Made by a program: the position numbers and the translations under genes. From Pedobacter ureilyticus (GTDB lineage Bacteria > Bacteroidota > Bacteroidia > Sphingobacteriales > Sphingobacteriaceae), in the NCBI RefSeq assembly GCF_005925345.1, contig NZ_SSHJ01000001.1:633817-697816 (forward strand): a stretch of DNA of 64,000 nucleotides, given 5' to 3'. The notes beneath the pieces were generated by a model. That model did not search any database, was not told where the DNA came from, and worked only from the letters and a program-made list of their open reading frames with translations. Of the stretch, positions 7,980-40,865 are shown piece after piece (positions within the stretch are counted from its first letter, which is position 1; each line of letters opens with the position of its first letter).

Positions 7980-9452
7980 CTATTTTATTTCGGCCCAATG
8001 ATCGGTTCTAAAAGGCAAAACTGGAAATCCTTCCCTATTCTGTAAATTAGTTACCGGATAATTGAAAAATGCATACCTCAAAGCCACTGGTTTTTTAACT
8101 TTTTTACTACTTACCACTACGGTATTTCCTTCTATAACCGCATCCGCTAAATGAAATACCTGATCTTCTCCAGCCATATAGAAAAATCTGGGTGCATTTC
8201 CGTCGTTGGTATTAAGCCCGCTGCCTAAGCTTTCCGCCTTGAAATGGATGGTTGCTACGTTTTTTTTAAATGTTACGTAATTATATTCTGGTCCTTGATC
8301 AACCAAATTTTGCTTGCTATAGGTTCTATTTAAAGCTACAGCGGCTAAGCGTAAGCCCACTGGCTTTTTATTTTTAGGGTGTAAATCTTTGGCTTCGCCA
8401 ACATCTATAGTGCTTACCATAGCCGTATTGTTTAGCGTGGCTACTTTTGCCTGCGCCTCTCTAAAAAATGCATCGTAGGCTAATTTATCATCTTCCTTTT
8501 CGTGAAAATAGGGTGCAATTTGTACATAATAAAAAGGCAAATCTCCCTGTTTAAAATTAGTACGCCAAGATTTAATAAGGGTTTGGGTAGCTGTTACATA
8601 ACTTTCTCTTTCCATGTGGTTGGCTTCGCCCTGATACCAACAAAAACCTTTGATAGATAGGTTGGTAAAAGGATTAATTAACGCATTGTACAACAAAAAC
8701 GGACGCACTACCTTTTCGAAAGAAAAACCGGCATCAATTTTTTCTTTAGCTTTTGGGCTTGCCAAATAGGGTTTTAAATAGGTTTCGTTTAAAAGCTTGT
8801 TGTTTTGTAATTTTTCTTGTGGTACAAATGCCTGCACACCAGAAGCGCCAATACCAGAAAAAATTAGTCCAATCGGGATATTGAGCTCGTCGTATAGTTT
8901 TTTTCCGAACGTATAGCCCACAGCACTAAAATCTTTAACATTATCAGAAGTACTTTCTTGCCATTTGCCAGAAAAATTGCCTATAGGCGTAGCACTGAAA
9001 TTTAAACCCACACTCAATAAACGGATATGAGGTTGGTTGGCGCTGCTTAACACCTCGTTTGCACCAATCATCTCTTTAACAGAAAACTGCATATTTGATT
9101 GTCCACTACAAAACCATATATCGCCAATAAGCAGATTGGTTAAGCTTAACTTTTCATCCTGCGTTTGCACTAAAATTTGATGTGTTGTAAAATCTCCGGC
9201 TTTAGCTAAAGGAACATCTATTAAAGCTAAAAATTCACCGTTTTTATCTGCAACTACAGTAGTTGGGTTGGCGAGCCAATCTGCTAATACCGATACTTTA
9301 TGGCCTGCAGTTGCTGTACCCCACACCCTAAATGCTTTATTTTGCTGCACTACCATGTTACTTTGCAAAGCATCCGCCAGTTTTAATACTGAAAAACACG
9401 GCTTACAAACAGCTAATAAACATAACAGTAGTAAATATTTGATGGCTTTCAT
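7980..9452 (-). CDS. Sialate O-acetylesterase-type SGNH esterase
   Basis: A 490-residue secreted protein (signal peptide about 1-21 ending in FS). GDIWFCSGQSNMQF (about 110-123) holds the nucleophile Ser of the SASA/SGNH family, with a conserved FCWYQGEANH block (about 270) and DVGEAKDLHPKNK (about 370) giving the catalytic Asp/His pair. Family members remove acetyl groups from sialic acid, xylan or other glycans. Its start codon overlaps the GH2 stop (TAATG), so the two are coupled. In this operon it probably deacetylates the glycan so that the exo-glycosidases can proceed; nothing in the window processes free sialic acid, so the sialate name should not be read literally. Confidence 0.85.
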   Translation of the reverse strand: MKAIKYLLLLCLLAVCKPCFSVLKLADALQSNMVVQQNKAFRVWGTATAGHKVSVLADWLANPTTVVADKNGEFLALIDVPLAKAGDFTTHQILVQTQDEKLSLTNLLIGDIWFCSGQSNMQFSVKEMIGANEVLSSANQPHIRLLSVGLNFSATPIGNFSGKWQESTSDNVKDFSAVGYTFGKKLYDELNIPIGLIFSGIGASGVQAFVPQEKLQNNKLLNETYLKPYLASPKAKEKIDAGFSFEKVVRPFLLYNALINPFTNLSIKGFCWYQGEANHMERESYVTATQTLIKSWRTNFKQGDLPFYYVQIAPYFHEKEDDKLAYDAFFREAQAKVATLNNTAMVSTIDVGEAKDLHPKNKKPVGLRLAAVALNRTYSKQNLVDQGPEYNYVTFKKNVATIHFKAESLGSGLNTNDGNAPRFFYMAGEDQVFHLADAVIEGNTVVVSSKKVKKPVALRYAFFNYPVTNLQNREGFPVLPFRTDHWAEIK

Positions 9453-12388
9453 TATCTTTTGCGGTTATTATAAGGTGTAACTTCTAGTTTATATTTGTTG
9501 CTTTTAAGCAAGTTTGCATCGAAAGTAATTTCTATGTCCTTACTTTCATTCTTAAACAGGGTAAAATAATCATCGTTCATCATTGCTGGCAAAATGCGCT
9601 CGCCGGTTTCGGCATCTATAGCCTGCACTTTTATAGCAAAGGCAATTTCATTTGATGTATTTTTAATCTTAGCAGCGATGATTTTCTGATTACCTTTTGA
9701 GCTAATTTTAGAGCTCACATTTAGTTTAACCGGCACCAATGTGTTTAGCTGTGTATAATCGTTATGGGCACTGCTTCTCCAATAAAAATTATCCGATAAA
9801 ACCTTACCTTTTTCGTCTTCTAAGAACAACTTGATCAATTGCACTTCCGGCGATTTCGTTCTTTGGGTGGTATAAACTTCAAACTCGTAGATAGAAACGC
9901 CATATTCTGTAGCTCTTTTCAAGGTTTGCATTCTCACATATCTGGCATTGGTTTTTGCAAAAGTAATTCTATCACTTCCACCATCCGAATTGTTTTCTAT
10001 CGCTACGTCTTTCCATTGTGTGGCATCATCAGAAACTTGGATTTTATAAGCTTTGGCGTAGGCGGCCTCCCATTCGATAATTACTTGGCGAACCGGTTCA
10101 ATTTTACCCAAATCTACATACACCCATTGGTTATCTTGGTAAGTACTTGTCCACCTTGACCCAGAATTGCCATCGGTAATTGCTGTTGCACTACCCGCTT
10201 CGGCTGATGTAGAAGAAGCAACAACTTTCTTTTGATAAGCCAAGTTATCCGTCACGGTATATAAATCCATCAAAAAGCTTTCGGTAGCCGTATTGCTAGC
10301 CGACACCAGCGTTTGGTTATAGCCTTTTAATTTCTGGCCCTTGATATTGTAAACTTCGGCTACTGCTTTTAAATTATCGTAATTTTTGCCAGTGCTGTTA
10401 ATCACTTTTACGCTGTTATCGGCATAACTCCATTGAATGTGAAGAGGTTCACATGCTTTTTTAACACCCCAATAAGCACCGTTCAAATCGTAATAGTAAT
10501 CATAAGTTTGCCACACAAAAGACGGATAGGCAGATTGGCTCATCCAAGTCATTACGCCAGAGGCATCATTCCACATGTGATGCAACCAACCTTCGTACAA
10601 AGCCTTGTTAGTTTCAATATTCAACAGTTGCGCTTTGAGGCAAAAATCTTCAATACCCGTAGCTTTTCCATAACGGTGATTGATACTTTCTTCGTAGCGA
10701 TCTGGGCCCGCATTTGCGGCACTTTTACCAAAAAAATGTTTATCCCACATTTCATCTCTTGGCCACCAATTTTCTTTAGGCATAAACTTTTTAAAGCTAT
10801 CGAAAGTGGTAAAAACAGCCGTTCCAATTTCGGTTCGCATTCCCCAACCCCTATCGCCGCCAAAACCACCGGGATATTTGGTAAAATACCACTGGGGATC
10901 AAAGTTTGTCCACGGACCACTACCTGTTAAGGCATCAGAATGCGAATTAGCCTGATACCAACGGTCGCCTGCATCAAAAGTCTTAACGTTTTCGGCCAGC
11001 CAAGCATTTAATGGCGGCTCTGGATAGCCTTCGTTATCGCCACACCAAACCGCAACAGATGGATGGTTTCTGTAACGCTTTATTTTTTCTACTGCATTTT
11101 GGTTAAAGGCAAAAATATCTCTAGGCAAGTTTTTATGTGAGTTTAACCAAAAATCGTCCCAGATCATGAGCCCATATTTATCGCAAGCTTCATAAAACTC
11201 GGCATCAGTAACAGAGCCAATCCAATTTCGAACCATGTTTAGGTTCATGTCTTTGTGCAGCTTCAATTTTAGATCATATTCATCGCCACGGCATCTCAGT
11301 AAATATTCGGACATGCCCCAGTTGCCGCCCTTTACAAAAATGCGCTTGCCATTGATACTGATATGAAACACGTTGCCCAAAGTATCATAGCTGTATTCTT
11401 TAATGCCAAAGGTAATTTTCTTAGTGTCCGAAATTTTCCCGTCTACAGTGTATTTCAACTCGCAAGAATACAAATTTGGCTCTCCATAACCATTTGGCCA
11501 CCACAATTTTGGATTATTAATAATAAACTGCTTGAACTTGCTGGTATCGAGTGTAAACGTGCGTTGTTGGTAAGCTTCAATCTTCATTTTTTGGGAGAAG
11601 GTAATATTTCCCGGCTGGATAACACCTGTGAGTTCCCCTTCCTTATCTGCTCCGGTGGTATTGCTCAGTTCTACTTGTAACTGCAAATTCGCTTGGTTTA
11701 GCGATGGCACTTTGGTTCTAATCCACGGATCTACCAAAGTAACCGAGCCAGAAGTACTTAAATACACATTATCAGTAATACCCATCAGTAAGCCAGGTAC
11801 GTAAGGCATCCAATCCCAACTGGCAGATGAAATATAAGTTGGGCTGGCATAATTTGGAATTGGCGTTTGCGGCCAATGCACCAATACAGCTAGCACATTC
11901 TCTTTACCTTTATCTAGCAAATTAGTAATATCAAACTTACCTCTGTGCATAAAACCATCTAACTTACCCAGATAGGTACCATTAAAATAAATATCGGCCT
12001 TGCGGTTTACGCCTTCAAAATTGAGCCAAAGTTTCTGACCATTTTGATGGCCAGCGGGAGCTTTAAAAGTAGTACGATACCAAAAATTTCTGTCGTACTT
12101 TCTCTTATCTACGTTGTAAATATTGTCTCCAAAATTTGGATCTTTTTCTATTCCAGCATTTACATAATCGTTAAAAACTATCCCGGGAACGGTAGCTTTT
12201 ATCCACTTTGTGGTAGTGTAGCCAGCTTTTAATACGTTGATACTGTCTTTACCAATTTCGGCTTGTGGTGCAACAAACCAAATGTTTTGCTGATCAGAAT
12301 CTAAAGGATATTTATTGATTTGCGCCACAACCACATGAGCCGTAGCCAAAGCTAATAAGGTAAATAGATATCGTTTATTTAATTTCAT
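9452..12388 (-). CDS. GH2 family beta-glycosidase (beta-mannosidase or exo-beta-glucosaminidase type) with F5/8C domain
   Basis: A 978-residue secreted enzyme (signal about 1-22 ending VVAQ). The N-terminal jelly-roll sugar-binding domain contains NYASPTYISSASWDWMPYVPG (about 180-200), Ig-like domains follow, and the TIM barrel carries VWCGDNEG (about 448), whose Glu is the expected acid/base. Residues about 700-830 are an F5/8 type C (discoidin) domain (NLAYQKKVVASS, RWTSTYQDNQWVYVDLG, RYVRMQTLKR) placed before the last beta domain. The architecture matches the GH2 subgroup with beta-mannosidases and exo-beta-D-glucosaminidases. In context it may cleave a beta-mannose or beta-GlcN(Ac) linkage at the core of the glycan. 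Seven bases separate it from the upstream GH92 gene. Confidence 0.85.
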   Translation of the reverse strand: MKLNKRYLFTLLALATAHVVVAQINKYPLDSDQQNIWFVAPQAEIGKDSINVLKAGYTTTKWIKATVPGIVFNDYVNAGIEKDPNFGDNIYNVDKRKYDRNFWYRTTFKAPAGHQNGQKLWLNFEGVNRKADIYFNGTYLGKLDGFMHRGKFDITNLLDKGKENVLAVLVHWPQTPIPNYASPTYISSASWDWMPYVPGLLMGITDNVYLSTSGSVTLVDPWIRTKVPSLNQANLQLQVELSNTTGADKEGELTGVIQPGNITFSQKMKIEAYQQRTFTLDTSKFKQFIINNPKLWWPNGYGEPNLYSCELKYTVDGKISDTKKITFGIKEYSYDTLGNVFHISINGKRIFVKGGNWGMSEYLLRCRGDEYDLKLKLHKDMNLNMVRNWIGSVTDAEFYEACDKYGLMIWDDFWLNSHKNLPRDIFAFNQNAVEKIKRYRNHPSVAVWCGDNEGYPEPPLNAWLAENVKTFDAGDRWYQANSHSDALTGSGPWTNFDPQWYFTKYPGGFGGDRGWGMRTEIGTAVFTTFDSFKKFMPKENWWPRDEMWDKHFFGKSAANAGPDRYEESINHRYGKATGIEDFCLKAQLLNIETNKALYEGWLHHMWNDASGVMTWMSQSAYPSFVWQTYDYYYDLNGAYWGVKKACEPLHIQWSYADNSVKVINSTGKNYDNLKAVAEVYNIKGQKLKGYNQTLVSASNTATESFLMDLYTVTDNLAYQKKVVASSTSAEAGSATAITDGNSGSRWTSTYQDNQWVYVDLGKIEPVRQVIIEWEAAYAKAYKIQVSDDATQWKDVAIENNSDGGSDRITFAKTNARYVRMQTLKRATEYGVSIYEFEVYTTQRTKSPEVQLIKLFLEDEKGKVLSDNFYWRSSAHNDYTQLNTLVPVKLNVSSKISSKGNQKIIAAKIKNTSNEIAFAIKVQAIDAETGERILPAMMNDDYFTLFKNESKDIEITFDANLLKSNKYKLEVTPYNNRKR

Positions 12389-28520: not shown

Positions 28521-30464
28521 TTATTTCTTAACTAAGGCTTGTTTTGCCAACCAGTTCACTAGTTCTTGCCCTGCTTCGTAGTTTTGATAACCAGCCGGAA
28601 GTTTCCTGCCATCCACATACTCGTTGTACAACCAAGGATCGCCAATTACAAATACTGTTCCTTTTCCAAACTTGGTTACCGACATCACATCATCACCATC
28701 TTTATCTTTTAAGATAGATTTTGCCGCTCCAGACAACTTCAAGCTGCTGTATTCTTTAATAAACAAATCCTTTGGTTTAAAAATTTGGTTACCAGCAGCC
28801 ACTACTACTTTTGCCGTTTCAAAATTGGCAGCAACCGGAACCGTTCCTTTACTATCTCCTTTAAAATGCACACCAAAAACATTGGCTAACTTATTAAAAT
28901 TGCTTAGCTCTGCGTTTGGCGCATCATTAGCCATTAATACCAACACACCTCCAGCTTTAATCCAAGCAGCTATTTGCTTCACATCTGTGGCAGAAACAAA
29001 CTTTGGATTAGGATTTTCCTTCTCAAAATCGGGATCTACAATGATATAAACTGAGGCATTTTTTAAGTTTGCCGCAGTAGGTGCCTGATATAAAGTACTG
29101 GTTTTAAATCCCGAATTTCGGAACTGATCTGCCCAAAAAGAGAAACCACCATTGCTCCGCTCTTCCCATTTGTAGTGCCAAGATAAATCGTTATTGCTTT
29201 GGTCTTTTTTAACTTCGTTGTTAAAGTAAGAATCTAACACCACTGCTTTACCTTTACCAGGCTTTGGCATCGCTGCCATTTCCATTTCGTTTAAAGCCAG
29301 CAAAAATGCGCCTACACCTTTGGGGTCGTTAGTAATTACTCGTTCGCTAATGTAATATTCGTAACTGCCATCACGGTAAGGTTTACCGCCCAAACCAGAT
29401 ACCGCAACTGTACCTTTTAAGCTAATTTTACCCGGAGCATCTTGCTGTACAAATTCCTTTTGCATGCCCTTGTACGCTTTATCTGCTACTGCGAAATACG
29501 AATTTGGCAACCAGCCATTTCTAACAGCTTTGGCCAAAGTATACACAAACATACTCGATGCCGAAGCCTCTAAGTAATTCCCTTTTCCAGTCGGTTTATC
29601 CAATACATCGTACCATAAACCTGTTTTTTGATCTTGTACTTTTTGTATGGCGGCTGCAAAGCGATTTAAAATAGCCACAATTTCTTTCTTTCGAGGATGT
29701 TTTTCTGGGAAGTTCTCCAATACATCTACCATGGCCATACCATACCAACCCATGGCCCTACCCCAAAAATTTGGCGATTTACCAGTGGTTTTATCTGCCC
29801 AAGCTTCCGCCTTAGACTCGTCCCAACCGTGGTACAACAAACCTGTTTTGGCATCTCTGGAGTTTTTCTCCATCCACACAAACTGGTTGGCAATATCATC
29901 AAAAGCTTTTTCATCCTGAATTAAAGCTGCATATTCTGCGTAAAACGGCTGGCCCATGTACAAACCATCTAGCCACATTTGCCAAGGATAAATCTTCTTA
30001 TGCCAAAATCCACCTTCTTTGGTACGAGGGTGTTCTTTTAACTGATCCCACAACAAGGTGGCCGCTTTAAAATATTTCTTGTTACCTGTTACCTTGTACA
30101 AAGTCAATAACGAACGCCCGTTCTTTACGTTGTCGATATTGTAATCGCTTTGTTTATAACGTTGGATATCCCCTTCTTTGGTTACAAAGAAATCCATACT
30201 TTTTTGCATGTACTTGAAATATTCGCCATCACCAGTACGTCTCCACAAACCATCAATTCCTTCTAAAATCACACCTTGATCGTAAGCCCATTTTACACGC
30301 TTCGGCTTAGCCGGATCTAGGTTTAATGAATCTTTCCAAATCTCCATCACCGTTGCTGCCATTTGTTTTGACAATGGCGTTAACGTTTGGCTTTGCGCCG
30401 CTGCATTGAAGCACAAAACCGATGAGGAAACGGCTACAACACCATATTTAAAAATCTTGTTCAT
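28521..30464 (-). CDS. GH105 unsaturated rhamnogalacturonyl hydrolase with C-terminal DUF4350-like domain
   Basis: A 647-residue secreted protein (signal about 1-23 ending AAAQ). Residues about 30-400 form the (alpha/alpha)6 barrel of GH105, with KRVKWAYDQGVILEG, the catalytic Asp in WQMWLDGLYMGQPF (about 158), HGWDESKAEAWADKTTGKSP and FWGRAMGWYGMA. Residues about 405-645 are a class-I-amidotransferase-like/DUF4350 domain (VLDSYFNNEVKKD, VYIIVDPDFEKENP, KAGGVLVLMANDA, VFVIGDPWLYNE). GH105 hydrolyses the unsaturated uronic acid from lyase products; the appended domain, seen in Bacteroidota members, has no established activity. Three bases separate it from the GH28 gene. Confidence 0.9.
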   Translation of the reverse strand: MNKIFKYGVVAVSSSVLCFNAAAQSQTLTPLSKQMAATVMEIWKDSLNLDPAKPKRVKWAYDQGVILEGIDGLWRRTGDGEYFKYMQKSMDFFVTKEGDIQRYKQSDYNIDNVKNGRSLLTLYKVTGNKKYFKAATLLWDQLKEHPRTKEGGFWHKKIYPWQMWLDGLYMGQPFYAEYAALIQDEKAFDDIANQFVWMEKNSRDAKTGLLYHGWDESKAEAWADKTTGKSPNFWGRAMGWYGMAMVDVLENFPEKHPRKKEIVAILNRFAAAIQKVQDQKTGLWYDVLDKPTGKGNYLEASASSMFVYTLAKAVRNGWLPNSYFAVADKAYKGMQKEFVQQDAPGKISLKGTVAVSGLGGKPYRDGSYEYYISERVITNDPKGVGAFLLALNEMEMAAMPKPGKGKAVVLDSYFNNEVKKDQSNNDLSWHYKWEERSNGGFSFWADQFRNSGFKTSTLYQAPTAANLKNASVYIIVDPDFEKENPNPKFVSATDVKQIAAWIKAGGVLVLMANDAPNAELSNFNKLANVFGVHFKGDSKGTVPVAANFETAKVVVAAGNQIFKPKDLFIKEYSSLKLSGAAKSILKDKDGDDVMSVTKFGKGTVFVIGDPWLYNEYVDGRKLPAGYQNYEAGQELVNWLAKQALVKK

Positions 30465-30467
30465 CTA

Positions 30468-32135
30468 CTATTTATTGATTTGTAATGATTTTTCTTGTGC
30501 TCCGGCTAAAAACTCAGCTTGCTTTTGTGCTTTAGAAACATCTAAGCCCCAAGTTTTGATATTACTGTTTCTATCGCCACTAATTTTGAATAACAGATCT
30601 GCACTGTTGTAAGTGATATTTTTCAAGTTCACATGATTACCATTTTGGATATTGATTAACGGATTGCCGTGTTCGATGGTTAACTTCACGTTAGTGAGGT
30701 TAATGTTTTTACCTTCCTGAATATCAATTCCTTTTTTAGATTTAATGTTGATGTTGGTTAAATTGATATTTGCAATGCTCATTTCTGGCAAACCACGAAC
30801 AAAAATTGCTTTTTCCGCCCCATCGCACACTACGTTATCGATAAAGAAATCTTTGAAAACCGGCGTTTCTTCGGTAACTGGCAACAACACTACCTTAGGC
30901 GCATCTCTTTTATCTCCAACCAATGCAATTGGATCTACCGCAGCATAATACATATCAAACAAAATGGCCTCACCAGGGATATCCATCATACTGATATCTT
31001 TGATATGGATGTTCTCTACCACACCGCCCCTACCTCTAGTAGTTTTAAAGCGCAAACCGATATCGGTACCAATAAAAGTACAATCAGAAACGAAGATATT
31101 TTTAGCACCCCCACTCATTTCGCTACCGATTACAAAACCACCGTGGGCATGGTAAACCGTGCTGTTTCGGATAATCACATTTTCTGTTGGCATAGCACGT
31201 TTACGGCCCCAAGCATCACGACCAGATTTGATGCAAATACCATCGTCACCTACATCGAAAGTGCTGTTTTCTACCAAAACATTTTTACAAGATTCGATAT
31301 CTAGGCCATCGCCATTTTGAGCATACCAAGGATTTTTGGCGTACACATTTCTAATGGTTACATCTTCGCACATCAGTGGATGAATATTCCAAGCTGCCGA
31401 ATTTTGAAAAGTAACTCCTTCTAACAATACCTTCTTACACGAAGTAAAAACCAGCAAATTAGGACGGAAGAAATCTTTAATGCCCTGATAATAATCCGCA
31501 GTTTTATCTGCCCTTACCTCACCAGGATTGCCCTTAATTTTAGAACCCGCTAAGCTTGCTGCCGAAGGATACCAAGTTTTTTGATCATCACTTAATACAC
31601 CGCCAGAAGCTACTAGGTTTTTCCACTGGCTTTCGGTTAACTTGCTCTTTTTCACCATTCGCCAAGCATCGCCACCACCATCTACAATACCTAAGCCGGT
31701 AACCGCAATGTTGGTTTGGTTTACAGCCCATAAAGGCGATTGGTTGCGCATTTGAGGCAAGCCTTCCCAGTTACTTTGTACCAAAGGGTACTGACTAAAA
31801 TCTCTGGTAAACTGCAAAATAGCATTAGCCTGCAAATGTAAGTTCACGTTACTTTTTAGCTCAACCGGTCCGGTAATCCACAAGCCTTTTGGCACCAACA
31901 CCACGCCACCGCCTTTTTTATTGCAAGCAACAATGGCATCGTTAATACTTTTGGTAATTAAAGTTATGCCATCGCTTTTAGCGCCGTAGTTTATAATATT
32001 AAAAGTATCTTTTTTAAAAGATGTTTGAGCTACTACTGGCAGGTTGCTAAAAGAATAAGCTTTTTGCGCCTTCGAAATCACTGGTAAAGCAATAGCGAGC
32101 GCTAGTATTGAAGCAATAATTTTCTTCATGTTCAT
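30468..32135 (-). CDS. GH28 polygalacturonase
   Basis: A 555-residue secreted right-handed beta-helix enzyme (signal about 1-23 ending SKAQ). GH28 signatures occur in order: AQNGDGLDIES (about 279, Asp), FDVGDDGICIKSGRDAWG (about 296, DD pair), AHGGFVIGSEMSGG (about 333, His) and IGLRFKTTRGRGG (about 360, the R.K pair). The N-terminal NIINYGAKSDG and ITGPVELKSNVNLHL are typical of the family. It hydrolyses galacturonan, perhaps exo-acting given the neighbouring GH105. It is the first gene of the GH28-GH105 pair; upstream of it no LacI-type operator is seen, so regulation differs from the mannoside locus. Confidence 0.93.
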   Translation of the reverse strand: MNMKKIIASILALAIALPVISKAQKAYSFSNLPVVAQTSFKKDTFNIINYGAKSDGITLITKSINDAIVACNKKGGGVVLVPKGLWITGPVELKSNVNLHLQANAILQFTRDFSQYPLVQSNWEGLPQMRNQSPLWAVNQTNIAVTGLGIVDGGGDAWRMVKKSKLTESQWKNLVASGGVLSDDQKTWYPSAASLAGSKIKGNPGEVRADKTADYYQGIKDFFRPNLLVFTSCKKVLLEGVTFQNSAAWNIHPLMCEDVTIRNVYAKNPWYAQNGDGLDIESCKNVLVENSTFDVGDDGICIKSGRDAWGRKRAMPTENVIIRNSTVYHAHGGFVIGSEMSGGAKNIFVSDCTFIGTDIGLRFKTTRGRGGVVENIHIKDISMMDIPGEAILFDMYYAAVDPIALVGDKRDAPKVVLLPVTEETPVFKDFFIDNVVCDGAEKAIFVRGLPEMSIANINLTNINIKSKKGIDIQEGKNINLTNVKLTIEHGNPLINIQNGNHVNLKNITYNSADLLFKISGDRNSNIKTWGLDVSKAQKQAEFLAGAQEKSLQINK

Positions 32136-34515: not shown

Positions 34516-35763
34516 ATGAAAATGATTAGATTGATCTCATTCAATTTTTGTTTACTACTACTATTTACCAGCTCTATTTTTGCACAAGACATCAGCAATT
34601 TAACAGCCGATGAGCTTTATAATAAAGCCAGAGAGCTACCTAAAGATAAAGACAGCTATCCTAAAACCATTAAACTATTAAAGCTTGCGCTAGAAAAAGA
34701 TCAAAATTACGCAGATGTACGTCTATTATTGGGCAGAGTTTATACTTGGAATGGAGATTTAGATAGCGCTAGGTTACAACTTAACCAAGTAATTGCTAGG
34801 GGTAAGCAAATTGAAGAAGCATATTCGGCTATTTTTGATGTGGAGTTTTGGAACCAAAACTTCGGCAGAGCTTTAGATCATGCCAACCAAGGCCTGCTTT
34901 ACACGCCTAACTCTACAGAATTATTCATAAAAAAAGCAAAAGCACTAAGCGCCTTAAACCAGCAAAGGCAAGCATTGGCATTGTTGAAAAACTATCTCAA
35001 AGATCACCCACAACAAGATTCGGTAAAAAACTATTACGATCTTTTAAGAAAAGAATACACTACCAATATCATTAGTTTAGGCTACGAGTATGTTTATTTC
35101 GACAAACGTTTTGATGACCCGTGGCATTATACCACCTTAGATTATACCAGAAAAACCAGTTTTGGGCCTGTTACCGGGCGGTTAATCTACAGCAATCGAT
35201 TTAATAAAAATGGCTTACAGGGAGAAATTGACGCCTATCCAATTATTTCAAAAAAAATAAACGCATATGTGGGTATGGCATTTTCTAACGCTGCTATATT
35301 TCCTAAATTTAGAACAGGTGCATCTTTATATTACGTTTTCCCTAAAAATTTTGATGCCGAAACAGGTTTTAGGTACTTAAACTTTGATTCGCTACAGGTT
35401 AGTTTGGCGGTAATAGGTCTTGGTAAATATGTTAAAAATTGGTACTTCAACTTACAATCTTATATTTCGATAAGCACTAAAATCCCTGCAAATGCGGTTA
35501 TATTAAGCGCTAGATACTATTTTTTCGATCGGTTTAATTTTGCGGGAGTTCAAATTGGGACGGGAATTTCTCCTGATGACCGCGTTCGCAACATTAACCA
35601 AGCATTAAATTACAAATCGTACAAATTGGGTTTAAGTTATGCAAGAGATATCTTTACCAACACATCTTTAGCCGCAAATGCGATTTGGTATTATGAAGAA
35701 TTTGCTCCAAATATTTGGGGCAACCAAATAGGTATAAATGTTACGCTAAACAAACGCTTTTAA
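34516..35763 (+). CDS. TPR and YaiO-type outer-membrane beta-barrel protein
   Basis: A 415-residue protein: signal peptide (about 1-24, IFAQ), TPR-like helices (about 28-175: TADELYNKARELPKD, YADVRLLLGRVYTWNGDLDSA, NQQRQALALLKNYLKDHP) and a C-terminal YaiO-type barrel (about 185-415) of alternating aromatic strands ending in ...VTLNKRF with terminal Phe, as required for BAM recognition. TPR followed by a barrel is the layout of polysaccharide exporters such as PgaA and BcsC. It is followed directly by an unknown membrane-anchored protein and sits opposite a GT2 synthase operon, so an exopolysaccharide export role is inferred. Confidence 0.8.
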   Translation: MKMIRLISFNFCLLLLFTSSIFAQDISNLTADELYNKARELPKDKDSYPKTIKLLKLALEKDQNYADVRLLLGRVYTWNGDLDSARLQLNQVIARGKQIEEAYSAIFDVEFWNQNFGRALDHANQGLLYTPNSTELFIKKAKALSALNQQRQALALLKNYLKDHPQQDSVKNYYDLLRKEYTTNIISLGYEYVYFDKRFDDPWHYTTLDYTRKTSFGPVTGRLIYSNRFNKNGLQGEIDAYPIISKKINAYVGMAFSNAAIFPKFRTGASLYYVFPKNFDAETGFRYLNFDSLQVSLAVIGLGKYVKNWYFNLQSYISISTKIPANAVILSARYYFFDRFNFAGVQIGTGISPDDRVRNINQALNYKSYKLGLSYARDIFTNTSLAANAIWYYEEFAPNIWGNQIGINVTLNKRF

Positions 35764-35766
35764 GTG

Positions 35767-36930
35767 ATGAAGAAGATACCTATTAGCAAATTGTTGTTTT
35801 ATCTCTTAATTGGCGCACCCATTTGGATGTTTCTTACTTGGCTAATTTGGCCTAAAAAAAAGTTAACCATTGCCATTGTAGATAAAACGGTATTGTTTAC
35901 CAGCGGACAAGAACATGCTTCGCTAAATTGGATTTTAAGAAATAACAAGTACAGTAAAACCTCTACAGATTTATATCAACTAAAGAAAGACTATTTTGGT
36001 TTTTTTCCCAATAAAAACAGAAAATTTGATTTAAAAGGGTTAGAAAGGTTTTCTGAAAAAGGCATAGAAAAGTTGAGTAAAGACGCAGAAATGGCCTACT
36101 TTACCGATACGTACGGCGTATACTCGAAGGAATGGTACTTGGAAAAAAACATTATAGAAAGGCAGAGGCTGTTGTATGGTGGCCTATCTGCCCAAGATAT
36201 GCTTTTCCTCAAAAAAATGAAGGAGAAGAAGAAACTTGTTATCACCGAATTTAACACCTTTGCAACCCCTACTCCCGAAAATGTAGCGAAAGATTTTGAG
36301 CAAACTTTTAAGATAAAGTGGACAGGCTGGGTTGGCAAATACTTCGACTCTTTTGACACCACACAAAACAGAGAAATACCCAGATGGCTAATTGATAATT
36401 ATAAATCACAAAACAATAACCAATGGCCATTTAAAAAATCGGGGATTGCATTTGTGAGCAAAGAAGATAAGATTGTGATACTAGAGTACGTAACGCATTT
36501 GGTTTCTGAAATTCCGTTAATTGTAACCGCCAAAAAAGAGCGCCAAACCTACCGTATCCCTAAACGTATCAAGTATCCATTTTGGTTTGATGTGGTGCAA
36601 ACTTCTAGGGCCAATAAAATAGTATCGTTTTACGACATAAAGACCAACAAAGAAGGGCTAGAAATACTAGCGAAAAATCACATTCCACCTCAATTTCCTG
36701 CAATTATTGCTCACTACGAAAAGGATTATAAGTTTTTCTATTTTTGTGGAGATTATGCCGACAATCCCATTTCACAGGGAGGTTCTTACTTTAAAGGCAT
36801 CAGTTATTTTAGAAAGCTTTTCTACAATGACGATGTTGCTGCCGAGAGAATCAGTTTTTTCTGGGAATTTTATAAACCTATGATTGAAACCATCTTAGAA
36901 AGGTACCGAGAAGATTTAAAGTCGAATTAA
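35767..36930 (+). CDS. Unknown membrane-anchored protein in exopolysaccharide-like locus
   Basis: A protein of about 387 residues that I do not recognise. One N-terminal helix (about 10-28, LLFYLLIGAPIWMFLTWLIW) followed by a positive cluster suggests a signal anchor with a large soluble domain. Notable segments are AIVDKTVLFTSGQEHASLNW, DAEMAYFTDTYGVYSKEWY, LVITEFNTFATPTPENVA, WTGWVGKYFDSFD and FPAIIAHYEKDYKFFYFCGDYADNP. The alternating strand/helix pattern and clustered Asp, Glu and aromatic residues suggest a sugar-active or amidotransferase-like fold, but I cannot name one. A GTG at 35764 abuts the upstream stop; the ATG at 35767 is preferred. It is probably co-transcribed and translationally coupled with the YaiO-type gene. 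Confidence 0.75.
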   Translation: MKKIPISKLLFYLLIGAPIWMFLTWLIWPKKKLTIAIVDKTVLFTSGQEHASLNWILRNNKYSKTSTDLYQLKKDYFGFFPNKNRKFDLKGLERFSEKGIEKLSKDAEMAYFTDTYGVYSKEWYLEKNIIERQRLLYGGLSAQDMLFLKKMKEKKKLVITEFNTFATPTPENVAKDFEQTFKIKWTGWVGKYFDSFDTTQNREIPRWLIDNYKSQNNNQWPFKKSGIAFVSKEDKIVILEYVTHLVSEIPLIVTAKKERQTYRIPKRIKYPFWFDVVQTSRANKIVSFYDIKTNKEGLEILAKNHIPPQFPAIIAHYEKDYKFFYFCGDYADNPISQGGSYFKGISYFRKLFYNDDVAAERISFFWEFYKPMIETILERYREDLKSN

Positions 36931-37166
36931 TGAGAGTTTTGGGCTTAACCTAGTCTAGCTGACCTTAAAATGAAAATACGATAACTATTGGATTTATTTT
37001 ACTGCGTAGTTTTCCTCATTGCTACAGGTATGGCCCGGCTTGTAGGTGTTTTTTTTAAACTTATTTTCAATATACGCCTTTAACTACTTAATAAACAATC
37101 AAAAACATACAAAACTCAGGTTAATTTGGTGCGTAAGAAAAACCTCAAATGGGCATCAAAATACAA
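36931..37166. other. Convergent intergenic region with relic repeat
   Basis: 236 bp between convergent genes. GATTTATTTTACTGCGTAGT...TGCTACAGG (36990-37027) resembles 50748-50786, so it may be a decayed dispersed repeat. No gene seen. Confidence 0.4.
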
Positions 37167-37877
37167 TTAATCAATATAGTTTTCTTTGTAAATGTCCACC
37201 TCCGGCTCTTCCTCAAAATAAAAGGCACACGTTTTTTCTAGTAGATAGGCAGATTTAGAAACTTTAACTCGAAATAAAACACTTTTCTCCTCTTCTGGAA
37301 GTGAAGAAACACCAAAAAACAGCATCAATAACCCAACCGTAACTATTACAAATGCTGATATTGTTTCTATAAAAACAAGCTTACGTGCTGTTTCAAGTAA
37401 AAACCAAAGCAACACCAAAACCAAAATTACACCTCCAAACCAATAGTAATTTGGCGAAAACCATTTTGTTAGCTCAATATGTTGACCTAAAGGTAGGGTT
37501 TCGCCTAGTAACATTTTAGTTTCGAAAAAATACTTAGCCAGTAGCAACTCCACCAAAAGGTAAAGCGCAAATAAAATATAGTTCATAATTTTAAGCGCTA
37601 AGCCTCTCATATTTGAAAAAAAAATTACAACATAAGGAATAAACAAAATTGGTAAAGATTTTAAGAAATAAATAAAACTAGACAACATACCATCGGCCAT
37701 TAACGAGATTGAATTGCCGTGCACCTGCTTTGAAAAATAATAGAAGCCTATTTCTGCAATTCGGATAAGCAGCAACATTAATAACAATATAATGGCCTGC
37801 TTTACGAACAAAATTACGCAGGTTTTAAACTTAGCTAAAATGGGATATTCTGGTGCTTCAAATAAAGTATTTTCCAT
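37167..37877 (-). CDS. Four-helix membrane protein, LTA-synthase-like N-terminal region
   Basis: A 236-residue protein with hydrophobic helices near residues 20-48, 70-88, 95-118, 145-162 and 170-190, then a polar tail of about 45 residues (LPEEEKSVLFRVKVSKSAYLLEK). The order of helices and the tail look like the N-terminal membrane part of LtaS/sulfatase-like enzymes, but the catalytic phosphatase domain is missing, so it may be a stand-alone relic or an accessory subunit. It is the last gene of the response regulator-HEAT-GT2 operon and its ATG shares a base with the GT2 stop (TAATG). The function is unknown; support of the polysaccharide synthase in the membrane is an inference. Confidence 0.7.
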   Translation of the reverse strand: MENTLFEAPEYPILAKFKTCVILFVKQAIILLLMLLLIRIAEIGFYYFSKQVHGNSISLMADGMLSSFIYFLKSLPILFIPYVVIFFSNMRGLALKIMNYILFALYLLVELLLAKYFFETKMLLGETLPLGQHIELTKWFSPNYYWFGGVILVLVLLWFLLETARKLVFIETISAFVIVTVGLLMLFFGVSSLPEEEKSVLFRVKVSKSAYLLEKTCAFYFEEEPEVDIYKENYID

Positions 37878-39328
37878 TAAGTTGTTGTATTTGCTGTGCT
37901 GTTTAAGGCTTCTGCATTTTTAAATCCTTTGCGTGTCATTGTGCCCCAATTGTTTTTACCTCTAAATTTATGAACATTGCCCTGGATTGCCCAAATTACC
38001 GTAAGCGGATGATATAAAATTGGCTCTAAAAAGGCTGCTAATAAAAGTTTTGCTAAATCCTTACCTTTGGTATATTGCTGGTATGACATTTCTTCGAAAA
38101 AAATGGCCACCGTGCTTAGCATTACAGAAAAACAATAGACCATGGAAAGTAATATCAACGAAAATTCCCAATTGATATTCCCCATGAGTGCCAGCAAAAT
38201 AAAAACACACACGCCAAAAGCCTCTACAATGGGCGCCAACCACTCAAAAAAGAGCCAATAAGGGTAGCTTAACATTCCCAAAATACCATATCTAGGGTTA
38301 AAAAAGAGGTCTTTATGTGTCCATAGGGTTTCTATAGTACCTCTAGTCCATCTGTTGCGCTGCCTACCTAAAATCTGCAAATCTGCAGGGGCTTCGGTCC
38401 AGCACAAGGGGTCTGGAATGTAAACTACCTTAAACCGCCTATCCTGCTCGTACATGTACCTTCTCATCCTTACCACCAGTTCCATATCTTCGCCCACGGT
38501 GGTATGGTCATAGCCTCCAACTTTAATTACGATGTTCTTATCAAACAAGCCCATTGCACCAGAAATAATCAGTAAGCCGTTAAGCCGGCTCCATGCCATA
38601 CGGCCCATTAAAAAGGCCCTAATATACTCTAAAACCTGAAAACGAGGCCATAAATTACGAGGCATATTTACTTCTACCAGCTTGCCATCTTCTACCTTAC
38701 AAGAATTGGCTATACGCACCACCCCACCAGTTGCGATTACTTGATACTTTTCTTCTAGGTAAGGCTTTGCCAGCTTCAAAATTGCATCTTCTTGTACAAT
38801 ACAATCTACATCTATGCACAATAGCAGGTCTTTCCCCGAAACATTAATACCAGCGTTTAAGGCATCTGATTTACCACCATTAACTTTATCTACGATGGTT
38901 AATTTAGAGAAAGAAGGCAGCTTAGATTTATAAACACCTTTAATTTCGTTACAAGTTATCTGATAATTTACCGCAAAGTCAACCTTTTCTAACTGATAAT
39001 AATCGAACATACGCTGAAAGGTATGATCTGTACTTCCATCGTTAATAATGATAACCTCGTAGTTGCCATAATGTAGAGACAACAGCGATCTAATATTTTC
39101 TATAATGGTGGCTTCTTCGTTATAGGCAGGAGCTAAAATAGATACTGAAGGAGCTAGCGGCGACACCAGAATTTCGCGGTAGTTCACATAGCTATTCTTT
39201 TTCATATAGCTATTCATCTCTATGGCCGAAAGCAGCGTAAAAATAACATACGAACCCATAACCACTACAGCATAATAGAATATTGCGTTGTTGAAAATAG
39301 TTTCGAAATCTGTTAAAAACTCTCTCAT
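37877..39328 (-). CDS. Family 2 glycosyltransferase, polysaccharide synthase type
   Basis: A 483-residue membrane enzyme. One helix (about 15-36) precedes the GT-A domain with VSILAPAYNEE (about 62), the UDP-binding Asp97 in INDGST, the metal-binding D173-V-D175, the general base Asp in VGED (D281) and the processivity motif QRNRW (Q323-W327). Four C-terminal helices (about 352-455) would build the translocation channel. This matches processive synthases such as PgaC, BcsA and HasA. No PilZ domain is present, so c-di-GMP control would have to come from elsewhere. Two bases separate it from the HEAT gene, which together with the response regulator suggests protein-level regulation. Confidence 0.9.
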   Translation of the reverse strand: MREFLTDFETIFNNAIFYYAVVVMGSYVIFTLLSAIEMNSYMKKNSYVNYREILVSPLAPSVSILAPAYNEEATIIENIRSLLSLHYGNYEVIIINDGSTDHTFQRMFDYYQLEKVDFAVNYQITCNEIKGVYKSKLPSFSKLTIVDKVNGGKSDALNAGINVSGKDLLLCIDVDCIVQEDAILKLAKPYLEEKYQVIATGGVVRIANSCKVEDGKLVEVNMPRNLWPRFQVLEYIRAFLMGRMAWSRLNGLLIISGAMGLFDKNIVIKVGGYDHTTVGEDMELVVRMRRYMYEQDRRFKVVYIPDPLCWTEAPADLQILGRQRNRWTRGTIETLWTHKDLFFNPRYGILGMLSYPYWLFFEWLAPIVEAFGVCVFILLALMGNINWEFSLILLSMVYCFSVMLSTVAIFFEEMSYQQYTKGKDLAKLLLAAFLEPILYHPLTVIWAIQGNVHKFRGKNNWGTMTRKGFKNAEALNSTANTTT

Positions 39329-39330
39329 TT

Positions 39331-40473
39331 CTATCTAATACGATCGTCTAGCACGTGCTTAATCAATGCTTGGTTTTCTTGTCCTGTTTGTAGGTAAATT
39401 GTTCTTAATTTTTCTTCGCCATGGTCTGGATCTATTTTTATAGCATATAGGGCTTCTTTTTTAATCTTTACATCAGCAGAATAAATTCTGGAAGAAAGGA
39501 ACTCCGAATAGTTTCCAGAAGCAATTTTACCTAAGGCGTTTAAAATTTCCAATTTAATTTCTTCAGAATGATTGAAGTAGATTTCGAACATGAAACTCTC
39601 TGCATCTTCTAGCTCTAATTTCCCTATAATTTCTACAGCTTTTCTTACAATTTTAGGGTTTTGATGTTTAAGCAACTTAATTACTTCTTGTGCAGCATCA
39701 AACTGCATAAAATGATCTACCAGTTTTAGGCATAGCATTACCACCGTATCATTAGAAGAATAAAGCCATTTTGAAAAAGACGGAATAGTGAGTTTCTTAT
39801 GTTTGGTAATAATTTCGAACAACACCACTTGGTGCCAATCTAAAATTCGTTCTTGTGCCCTATCCAAAAAATGGAATGGGTCTGATTGAGAGAGCTTAAT
39901 GTACGCCGCCTGAGCCTCCATACGTAATAGCGCATTTTCATCATCCGTATACTCTACGATTAGATGAGCCATCTCCATCAAATCCATTTCATTGGCTTCT
40001 CTTATGCCTTCAATTTTAGTTTCCCAATTTCTATTTTTGATTTTTCTTTTAGCCTTTTTATCAAGGCTAAGCTTTCGATACATTAACGATAGAACTTCCG
40101 CAGTTTTACCGGTAAAATTTTTATGGTAGGTTAGAATTTTCTCAACCAATATACTGTTAACCACCTTACTACGCAATGGTATTTTCTTTAGTTTAGGATA
40201 AAAATGCGCAACAACTTCGTGAGGATGATCAGTCTCATCAAAAACAATCATATTAGCCAGTAACACGCTAATATAATCGTCCCAATACTTCATACGCTTA
40301 CTTCTTACAGACCTAACCGCTCTTCTAACCATCATATAGAGGTATAGCTCTATGGCAGTAATGACACAGAAAAGAATAATCAACAGCGACACCCTAATGT
40401 TAGTAGGAAAATAGGGCAATCGGTCTGTATAAATCTGACCTATATAATTAAATAAAGTATTGAAAATGCTCAT
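39331..40473 (-). CDS. Membrane-anchored HEAT-repeat protein
   Basis: A 380-residue protein with one helix (about 27-49, VSLLIILFCVITAIELYLYMM) then a basic segment, which places the rest in the cytoplasm. Residues about 150-380 are helical HEAT-type repeats (EMAHLIVEYTDDENALLRMEA, NPKIVRKAVEIIGKLELEDA, EEIKLEILNALGKIA, DVKIKKEALYAIK). HEAT solenoids are protein-binding scaffolds. Placed between a lone receiver domain and a GT2 synthase, it may link the phosphorylation signal to the synthase (inference). No enzyme motif is seen. Confidence 0.85.
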   Translation of the reverse strand: MSIFNTLFNYIGQIYTDRLPYFPTNIRVSLLIILFCVITAIELYLYMMVRRAVRSVRSKRMKYWDDYISVLLANMIVFDETDHPHEVVAHFYPKLKKIPLRSKVVNSILVEKILTYHKNFTGKTAEVLSLMYRKLSLDKKAKRKIKNRNWETKIEGIREANEMDLMEMAHLIVEYTDDENALLRMEAQAAYIKLSQSDPFHFLDRAQERILDWHQVVLFEIITKHKKLTIPSFSKWLYSSNDTVVMLCLKLVDHFMQFDAAQEVIKLLKHQNPKIVRKAVEIIGKLELEDAESFMFEIYFNHSEEIKLEILNALGKIASGNYSEFLSSRIYSADVKIKKEALYAIKIDPDHGEEKLRTIYLQTGQENQALIKHVLDDRIR

Positions 40474-40487
40474 GTTTTAGCATTAAC

Positions 40488-40865
40488 TCAATGAAAAACA
40501 TTCTGCTTAATGTAACGCTTAATTCTTACCGATAGCTCGTTTAAATTAAATGGCTTATAGATAAAATCATCGGCACCTAAACTAAACCCCTCTAAAACAA
40601 CGTGTTCTAAACCTACAGCAGAAATCAACAAAACGGGTGTATGTTTTTTAATCGCATCGTTTTTGATATAGCTAAGAATTTCCATACCTCCTACAAAAGG
40701 CATCATAATATCGGTAAGAACTAGATCGTAAGTATTTGACTTTACTTTTTCCATGGCCTGCCTGCCGTCAGAAGCTACTTCAACCTCATAACCTTCCTTT
40801 TTCAACTTAAATTCTAGCGCTTTAAGCATTAATACTTCGTCTTCAGCTATCAATATTTTCGACAT
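40488..40865 (-). CDS. Single-domain response regulator (CheY-like)
   Basis: A 125-residue receiver domain only. The acidic pocket (E8, D9), phosphoacceptor D52 in LTDIMMP, the switch Ser82 in LLISA and K104 in YKPFN are all present. There is no output domain, so it should act by binding a partner, most likely the adjacent HEAT protein 14 bp downstream. No histidine kinase gene is in the window. Confidence 0.93.
   Translation of the reverse strand: MSKILIAEDEVLMLKALEFKLKKEGYEVEVASDGRQAMEKVKSNTYDLVLTDIMMPFVGGMEILSYIKNDAIKKHTPVLLISAVGLEHVVLEGFSLGADDFIYKPFNLNELSVRIKRYIKQNVFH

Follow-up and report, generated by a model that had tools for sequence, protein, structure and literature searches.

A putative synthase-dependent exopolysaccharide locus of Pedobacter ureilyticus in which a HEAT-repeat protein and a dedicated receiver accompany the glycosyltransferase

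Six genes of Pedobacter ureilyticus, located at 34516–40865 of a 64,000-nucleotide window (the whole stretch of DNA analysed; contig NZ_SSHJ01000001.1, assembly GCF_005925345.1, positions 633,817 to 697,816 of the forward strand), are likely to constitute a synthase-dependent exopolysaccharide system, in which a family 2 glycosyltransferase (GT2) would be partnered by a membrane-anchored cytoplasmic HEAT-repeat protein and a dedicated receiver and switched via phosphorylation. An initial annotation of this DNA had proposed that receiver and HEAT form part of a distinct system for polymer synthesis and secretion, and the gene associations described here support it. A literature search, from whose reach most subscription journals and preprints were excluded, returned no description of this gene set. 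The features are as follows.

34516–35763, plus strand: YaiO gene (415 amino acids, aa), with tetratricopeptide repeats (TPR) and a YaiO outer-membrane beta-barrel; candidate polymer exporter
35764–36930, plus strand: gene of a 388-aa anchored protein, starting immediately after the YaiO stop codon
37022–37045, plus strand: terminator-like stem with a T run, lying between the two converging units; weak, from a consensus scan only
37167–37877, minus strand: gene of a 236-aa membrane protein with five membrane segments, overlapping the GT2 gene by 1 nt
37877–39328, minus strand: GT2 gene (483 aa), separated by 2 nt from the HEAT gene; candidate processive polymer synthase
39331–40473, minus strand: HEAT gene (380 aa), 14 nt after the receiver gene; membrane-anchored alpha-solenoid
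40488–40865, minus strand: receiver gene (125 aa); single-domain response regulator with phospho-acceptor D52

The positions of all six genes and the domains named for them were confirmed by the open reading frame (ORF) listing and a Pfam scan. On the minus strand, the genes for the receiver, HEAT, GT2 and 236-aa proteins span 40865 to 37167, the intervals between them being 14, 2 and −1 nt, in agreement with their earlier assignment to one operon, and the plus- and minus-strand units converge on a 236-bp gap. The terminator scan of the region yielded 5 candidates against 5.6 expected in shuffled sequences, and the promoter scan likewise gave no excess. Two samples served for comparison. The locus sample consists of the best-scoring 80 of 577 confirmed named genome loci, from Sphingobacteriaceae, Chitinophagaceae, Flavobacteriaceae, Hymenobacteraceae, Marinifilaceae, Prolixibacteraceae and others; near relatives are over-represented in it because only the best-scoring loci were kept. 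The census consists of 198 genomes drawn evenly across Bacteroidota, for which we chose E-value cut-offs of 1e-70 for GT2, 1e-15 for HEAT, 1e-5 for YaiO and GGDEF, and 1e-3 for PilZ.

Two hallmarks of synthase-dependent exopolysaccharide systems are present at the locus, an inner-membrane GT2 with processive-type catalytic motifs and, linked to it genetically, an exporter that combines TPR with an outer-membrane barrel. The GT2 (PF13641, E 1.1e-22; three hydrophobic segments) matched only GT2-type families and Chitin_synth_2 in the Pfam scan. Residues D97, D173, D175, E280, D281, Q323, R324, R326 and W327 are identical in 80/80 aligned rows, so the catalytic residues among the motifs listed in the initial annotation (D97, D173/D175, D281 and QRNRW) all hold, with the exception that the N of QRNRW varies among the rows. 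The YaiO protein, with a hydrophobic N-terminal segment at residues 4–22, scores far above the cut-offs of both its Pfam family (PF19413, E 1.2e-56, 191.9 bits against 23.9) and its curated family (TIGR04390, 155 bits against 32), and TPR was also found; against the PgaA equivalog it reaches 17.2 bits, under the cut-off of 366.65.

That the two convergent units belong together had been staked on their co-occurrence in other genomes, and the census bears it out. GT2 was detected in 50/198 genomes and YaiO in 49/198, all 49 YaiO genomes having GT2 and a single genome (G179) having GT2 without YaiO (Fisher p 6e-46, a value which overstates independence because the genomes are related). The association is physical as well, with YaiO within 10 kb at 49/55 GT2 loci and GT2 within 10 kb at 49/52 YaiO loci. 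In the locus sample YaiO lies near GT2 in 66/80 loci, and in 51 of the 55 where both flanks span at least 5 kb. Of the 66, 43 have YaiO on the same strand as GT2, with YaiO immediately upstream of HEAT in 29 of them, and 23 have it on the opposite strand. A single unit thus occurs in several arrangements, the convergent one of the window among them. None of the 27 other GT2 matches in the P. ureilyticus genome has a HEAT-, receiver-, YaiO-, 388-aa-protein- or alkaline-phosphatase-family gene within two genes.

The HEAT protein (HEAT_2, E 3.6e-7, 30.8 bits against a cut-off of 27.7) was modelled with a predicted local distance difference test (pLDDT) score of 91.9 as one long N-terminal helix followed by a helix-only solenoid. 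Positive charge is higher after than before the membrane segment in 64/81 members of the family, and the repeats are predicted to be cytoplasmic and anchored in the inner membrane. In 76/80 loci the gene immediately preceding GT2, on the same strand, encodes HEAT, as it does in 75 of the 77 with at least 1.2 kb upstream; two of the four loci without it (L059 and L062) begin no more than 90 bp from a contig end. In the census, HEAT at the strict threshold was found in 28/198 genomes, all with GT2 and YaiO, and 32/32 HEAT loci lie within 3 kb of GT2. Fourteen GT2 loci without a strict HEAT match were opened, three of which (L141, L149 and L150) could be reached only with a HEAT model retrained on the others, and 13 of them carry a diverged, weaker-scoring HEAT gene beside GT2. 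In the remaining one, L150, which is GC-rich with overlapping frames, HEAT is uncertain. Mutual replacement of HEAT and GGDEF was considered and rejected, given the diverged HEAT genes adjoining GT2 in 13/14 loci inspected.

The receiver (PF00072 Response_reg, E 1.2e-28) has no output domain and is a single-domain response regulator. A receiver-family match occurs somewhere in 65/80 loci, and the acceptor D52 is kept in 64/65 rows and K104 in 65/65. The lone receiver lies at most two genes upstream of HEAT in 55/80 loci (54 of the 72 with at least 2.5 kb upstream). In a FastTree phylogeny of 68 operon-side rows and 40 other receiver domains, 62/62 operon receivers fell on one side (support 0.86), and the 6 other rows on that side likewise derive from these loci; by this tree the operon receivers are a dedicated group. 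Furthermore, 18/80 loci encode a large receiver-containing protein no more than four genes from HEAT, towards the receiver, and a hybrid histidine kinase was found in 7/7 of these loci that were scanned, most with CHASE3 or PAS domains.

Cyclic di-GMP (c-di-GMP) control is a usual, not universal, trait of synthase-dependent exopolysaccharide systems, and was not found at this locus: the Pfam scan detected no c-di-GMP domain in the six proteins. PilZ was absent from 198/198 census genomes, the positive controls matching, and from the P. ureilyticus genome, which also lacks GGDEF; c-di-GMP control is therefore very unlikely here. Across the census, GGDEF is present in 108 genomes and absent from 90, and at the same threshold (E ≤ 1e-5) 34 of the 50 GT2 genomes, P. 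ureilyticus included, and 25 of the 28 strict-HEAT genomes are without it. Among the 16 GT2 genomes that have GGDEF, at least 8 carry it within 5 kb of GT2. In two loci of one family (L139 and L148) a receiver-GGDEF-receiver protein is encoded where the lone receiver would otherwise stand; these are the two that were opened among genomes G048, G089, G097 and G194, the other two having GGDEF about 1.5 kb from GT2. A GGDEF-EAL protein lies near the unit in L141, and GGDEF together with an HD-domain protein in L140. The HEAT gene is kept in such lineages, and so HEAT looks like the part that stays the same and the source of the signal like the part that varies. The earlier proposal that receiver and HEAT replace PilZ control is thus borne out in part: the position of HEAT, the dedicated receivers, the hybrid kinases at some loci, the census-wide lack of PilZ and the absence of GGDEF here speak for it indirectly, and the lineages that keep HEAT and add GGDEF enzymes show that HEAT in place of c-di-GMP does not cover every case.

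Taken together, the synthase is probably switched by protein phosphorylation and not by c-di-GMP, a phosphorylation switch being the most likely mechanism. GT2 would polymerise a nucleotide sugar at the cytoplasmic side and thread the chain through the inner membrane, and its export through the outer membrane would be the task of the YaiO barrel with its TPR part. An OpgB/LtaS-like enzyme may, in many relatives, decorate the chain with a phospho-group, and the 388-aa anchored protein, for which a fold like that of class I glutamine amidotransferases is predicted, probably acts on the glycan once it is in the periplasm. The HEAT solenoid, whose repeats would lie in the cytoplasm, would act as a core partner of GT2. 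A histidine kinase, encoded elsewhere in this genome and next door in some relatives, would phosphorylate the dedicated lone receiver, which most likely binds HEAT and thereby turns the synthase on or off. A wider formulation, which we put forward tentatively and at somewhat less than even odds, is that of a phylum-wide machine, where the phosphorylated lone receiver gates GT2 post-translationally via HEAT, doing the job of c-di-GMP in the Pga, Bcs and Nfr systems, while GGDEF enzymes feed the same unit in c-di-GMP lineages and HEAT serves as the common signal adaptor.

Several observations weigh against a phosphorylation-switched exopolysaccharide system of this kind. GGDEF enzymes stand beside the same HEAT-GT2 unit in some lineages, and therefore phosphorylation is not the sole input. 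No receiver was found within two genes of HEAT in 25/80 loci (18 of the 72 that extend at least 2.5 kb upstream), which makes the receiver less tightly held than HEAT, and no kinase was seen beside the receiver within the window. Two loci, L060 and L094, are without HEAT despite having room for it upstream. The GT2 scores far under the cut-offs of PgaC (PgaC_IcaA, its top curated relative, 122.5 bits against 422.3) and of the CelA equivalog (34 bits against 699.1), and these scores assign no polymer type. Finally, the system is patchy in its own genus, full-length GT2 relatives being present in 7/25 same-genus genomes, P. ureilyticus included.

The strongest competing explanation, which we regard as possible but not likely, is that HEAT serves GT2 structurally or in assembly, for instance by positioning it beneath the YaiO exporter, and that the receiver acts elsewhere or on expression only, with no phospho-gating. 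It would account for the stricter retention of HEAT (76/80) than of the receiver (55/80), and it suits the role of HEAT solenoids as general binding scaffolds, the best PDB matches of the HEAT model being generic HEAT, Arm and alphaRep proteins. However, the receiver belongs to a dedicated lineage with an intact phospho-site and no DNA-binding domain and is encoded just upstream of HEAT, and its replacement by a receiver-GGDEF-receiver protein in L139 and L148 points to a signalling input.

The 236-aa membrane protein, described as a four-helix protein in the initial annotation, has five hydrophobic segments, gave no Pfam match and corresponds to the membrane half of a larger phosphoglycerol-transferase-like enzyme. 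Relatives in its position are about 680 aa long and combine five membrane segments with a PF00884 domain (E 1e-31 to 1e-35 in the four scanned). A tblastn search with a 682-aa relative matched the window locus with residues 1–243 alone, and both the window protein and that of Pedobacter helvus (L049) match profile positions 1–236 of 679 only. The transferase thus ends at the same profile position, 236/679, in the window (37167–37877) and in P. helvus (L049:8449–9159), and is full length in the close relatives L039, L050, L051 and L052. By sequence, therefore, the catalytic half is a shared loss of the two genomes and the membrane half is retained. The PF00884 catalytic domain, by which OpgB/LtaS phosphoglycerol transferases are recognised, is absent from the window protein, and no match to a remnant of it was found in the 236-bp gap. 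Relocation was considered as well: four PF00884 proteins are encoded elsewhere in the genome, of which three match the 682-aa relative, at only about 25% identity, and hence no recent relocation was seen. The two truncated proteins are 53% identical with a ratio of non-synonymous to synonymous substitution (dN/dS) of 0.13, which suggests that selection maintains the membrane half; dS is saturated, at 2.6. Loss of the catalytic half with retention of the membrane half in two Pedobacter-type genomes offers a natural separation of the two roles of the enzyme.

The transferase family occurs in 30/80 loci, is fused to GT2 in 7/80 and is found with TPR repeats in L064, whose 314-aa row, counted as a full-length transferase, is a fragment of an unrelated ORF. 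The curated models nearest to the full-length relatives are phosphoglycerol transferase I (NF009027, E 4e-11) and lipoteichoic acid (LTA) synthase, both below their cut-offs, and the nearest solved chains are 3lxq and the LTA primase 4uop. The match to phosphoglycerol transferase I lends some weight to the notion that the product is a small decorated glucan staying in the periplasm or on the cell surface, like the osmoregulated periplasmic glucans made with OpgH and OpgB. Such a product is nonetheless improbable, given the near-perfect co-occurrence of GT2 with an outer-membrane barrel and the weak alignment of E. coli OpgH to the GT2 family profile (best domain 2.9 bits).

Given the breadth of the GT2 family, it is conceivable, though very improbable, that this member glycosylates a lipid or a protein, an assignment to which the initial annotation had tied the fate of its proposal. 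When E. coli references are included in a tree, the family stays together (95/63, not starred), separate from ArnC and YfdH; since the reference branches are very long and the deep forks weak, the sister of the family is not fixed and the tree was used for family cohesion only. No support for a lipid or protein glycosylation clade was obtained: the nearest curated models, all sub-cut-off, are PgaC/IcaA and the XrtG-associated GT2, the QxxRW and catalytic Asp set of processive GT2s is present in 80/80 rows, and the gene is coupled to YaiO. The closest named relatives are the GT2 of P. helvus (90% identity) and a protein assigned to Nubsella zeaxanthinifaciens, now Pedobacter (84%). A c-di-GMP system with a receptor missed by the PilZ and GGDEF searches would fit the proximity of GGDEF to GT2 in at least 8 of 16 genomes, yet it is the least probable alternative, in view of the 34/50 GT2 genomes without GGDEF and the 0/198 with PilZ.

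Most same-genus genomes without the GT2 (L017–L032 and L047) match best near one end of an open-frame protein of about 1,140 aa, which is another candidate polysaccharide enzyme. In L140, a gene for an NAD-dependent epimerase (8733–9719; PF01370, E 1e-46) lies just upstream of HEAT and GT2 and might hint at the sugar donor.

The 388-aa protein is predicted to consist of an N-terminal anchor and a periplasmic domain with a class I glutamine-amidotransferase/ThuA-like fold and no conserved Cys. No convincing family was found for it in Pfam (best E 0.04), and a profile search of the PDB gave two chance matches only (E 0.47 and 0.49), to a toxin chain. Its family is present in 22/80 loci and adjoins YaiO in 18. 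Three loci, two from Marinifilum and one from Labilibaculum (L082, L091 with 439 aa and L099 with 428 aa), carry a clustered gene between YaiO and HEAT, which in L082 encodes a CotH-kinase-family protein (PF08757, E 3.7e-59). Elsewhere in the window, upstream of the locus, adjacent ORFs of 647 and 555 aa at 28521–32135 resemble a pectin-degradation pair (GH105- and GH28-like), as judged by eye in the ORF listing.

Many Bacteroidota are without detectable c-di-GMP enzymes and nevertheless make matrix polysaccharides. For them, the conserved GT2-HEAT-receiver-YaiO set is a named and testable candidate for synthase switching and, if the proposed system is correct, it would explain the role of YaiO in Bacteroidota.

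Parts of the locus recall several known systems. Full-length relatives of the 236-aa protein share five membrane segments, PF00884 and the nearest solved structures (3lxq and 4uop) with OpgB/LtaS enzymes, but they score below the curated cut-offs, often lie in a GT2 locus and are fused to GT2 in 7/80, and the catalytic half is missing in the window. The E. coli yaiS-yaiP-yaiX-yaiO region likewise has a GT2 (YaiP) near YaiO, together with modifying enzymes; however, neither HEAT nor receiver is among its annotated neighbours, its YaiO has 257 aa, YaiX is broken by IS2, and the GT2 YaiP is only remotely similar to the window GT2 family profile (best domain 18.8 bits). The Pga system offers the closest curated GT2 (PgaC, 122.5 bits) and a TPR-barrel exporter, whereas the window GT2 and YaiO fall far below the PgaC and PgaA cut-offs and no PgaB-type deacetylase or PgaD was found in the locus. 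With Bcs systems that include the phosphoethanolamine transferase BcsG, a member of the alkaline phosphatase superfamily, the locus shares a GT2 and a TPR-barrel, and its relatives an alkaline-phosphatase-superfamily transferase, which unlike BcsG is OpgB/LtaS-like by sequence; BcsB, BcsZ and PilZ are lacking and the CelA model reaches only 34 bits. Compared with the E. coli Nfr system, the window locus has HEAT and a receiver, a different barrel family and no c-di-GMP domain, the MshEN domain being absent from its GT2 in the Pfam scan. The Nfr system comprises the GT2 NfrB, the TPR-barrel NfrA and the anchored periplasmic protein YbcH (PMC8669469), so that both loci unite a GT2 synthase, a TPR/outer-membrane barrel and a membrane-anchored periplasmic protein.

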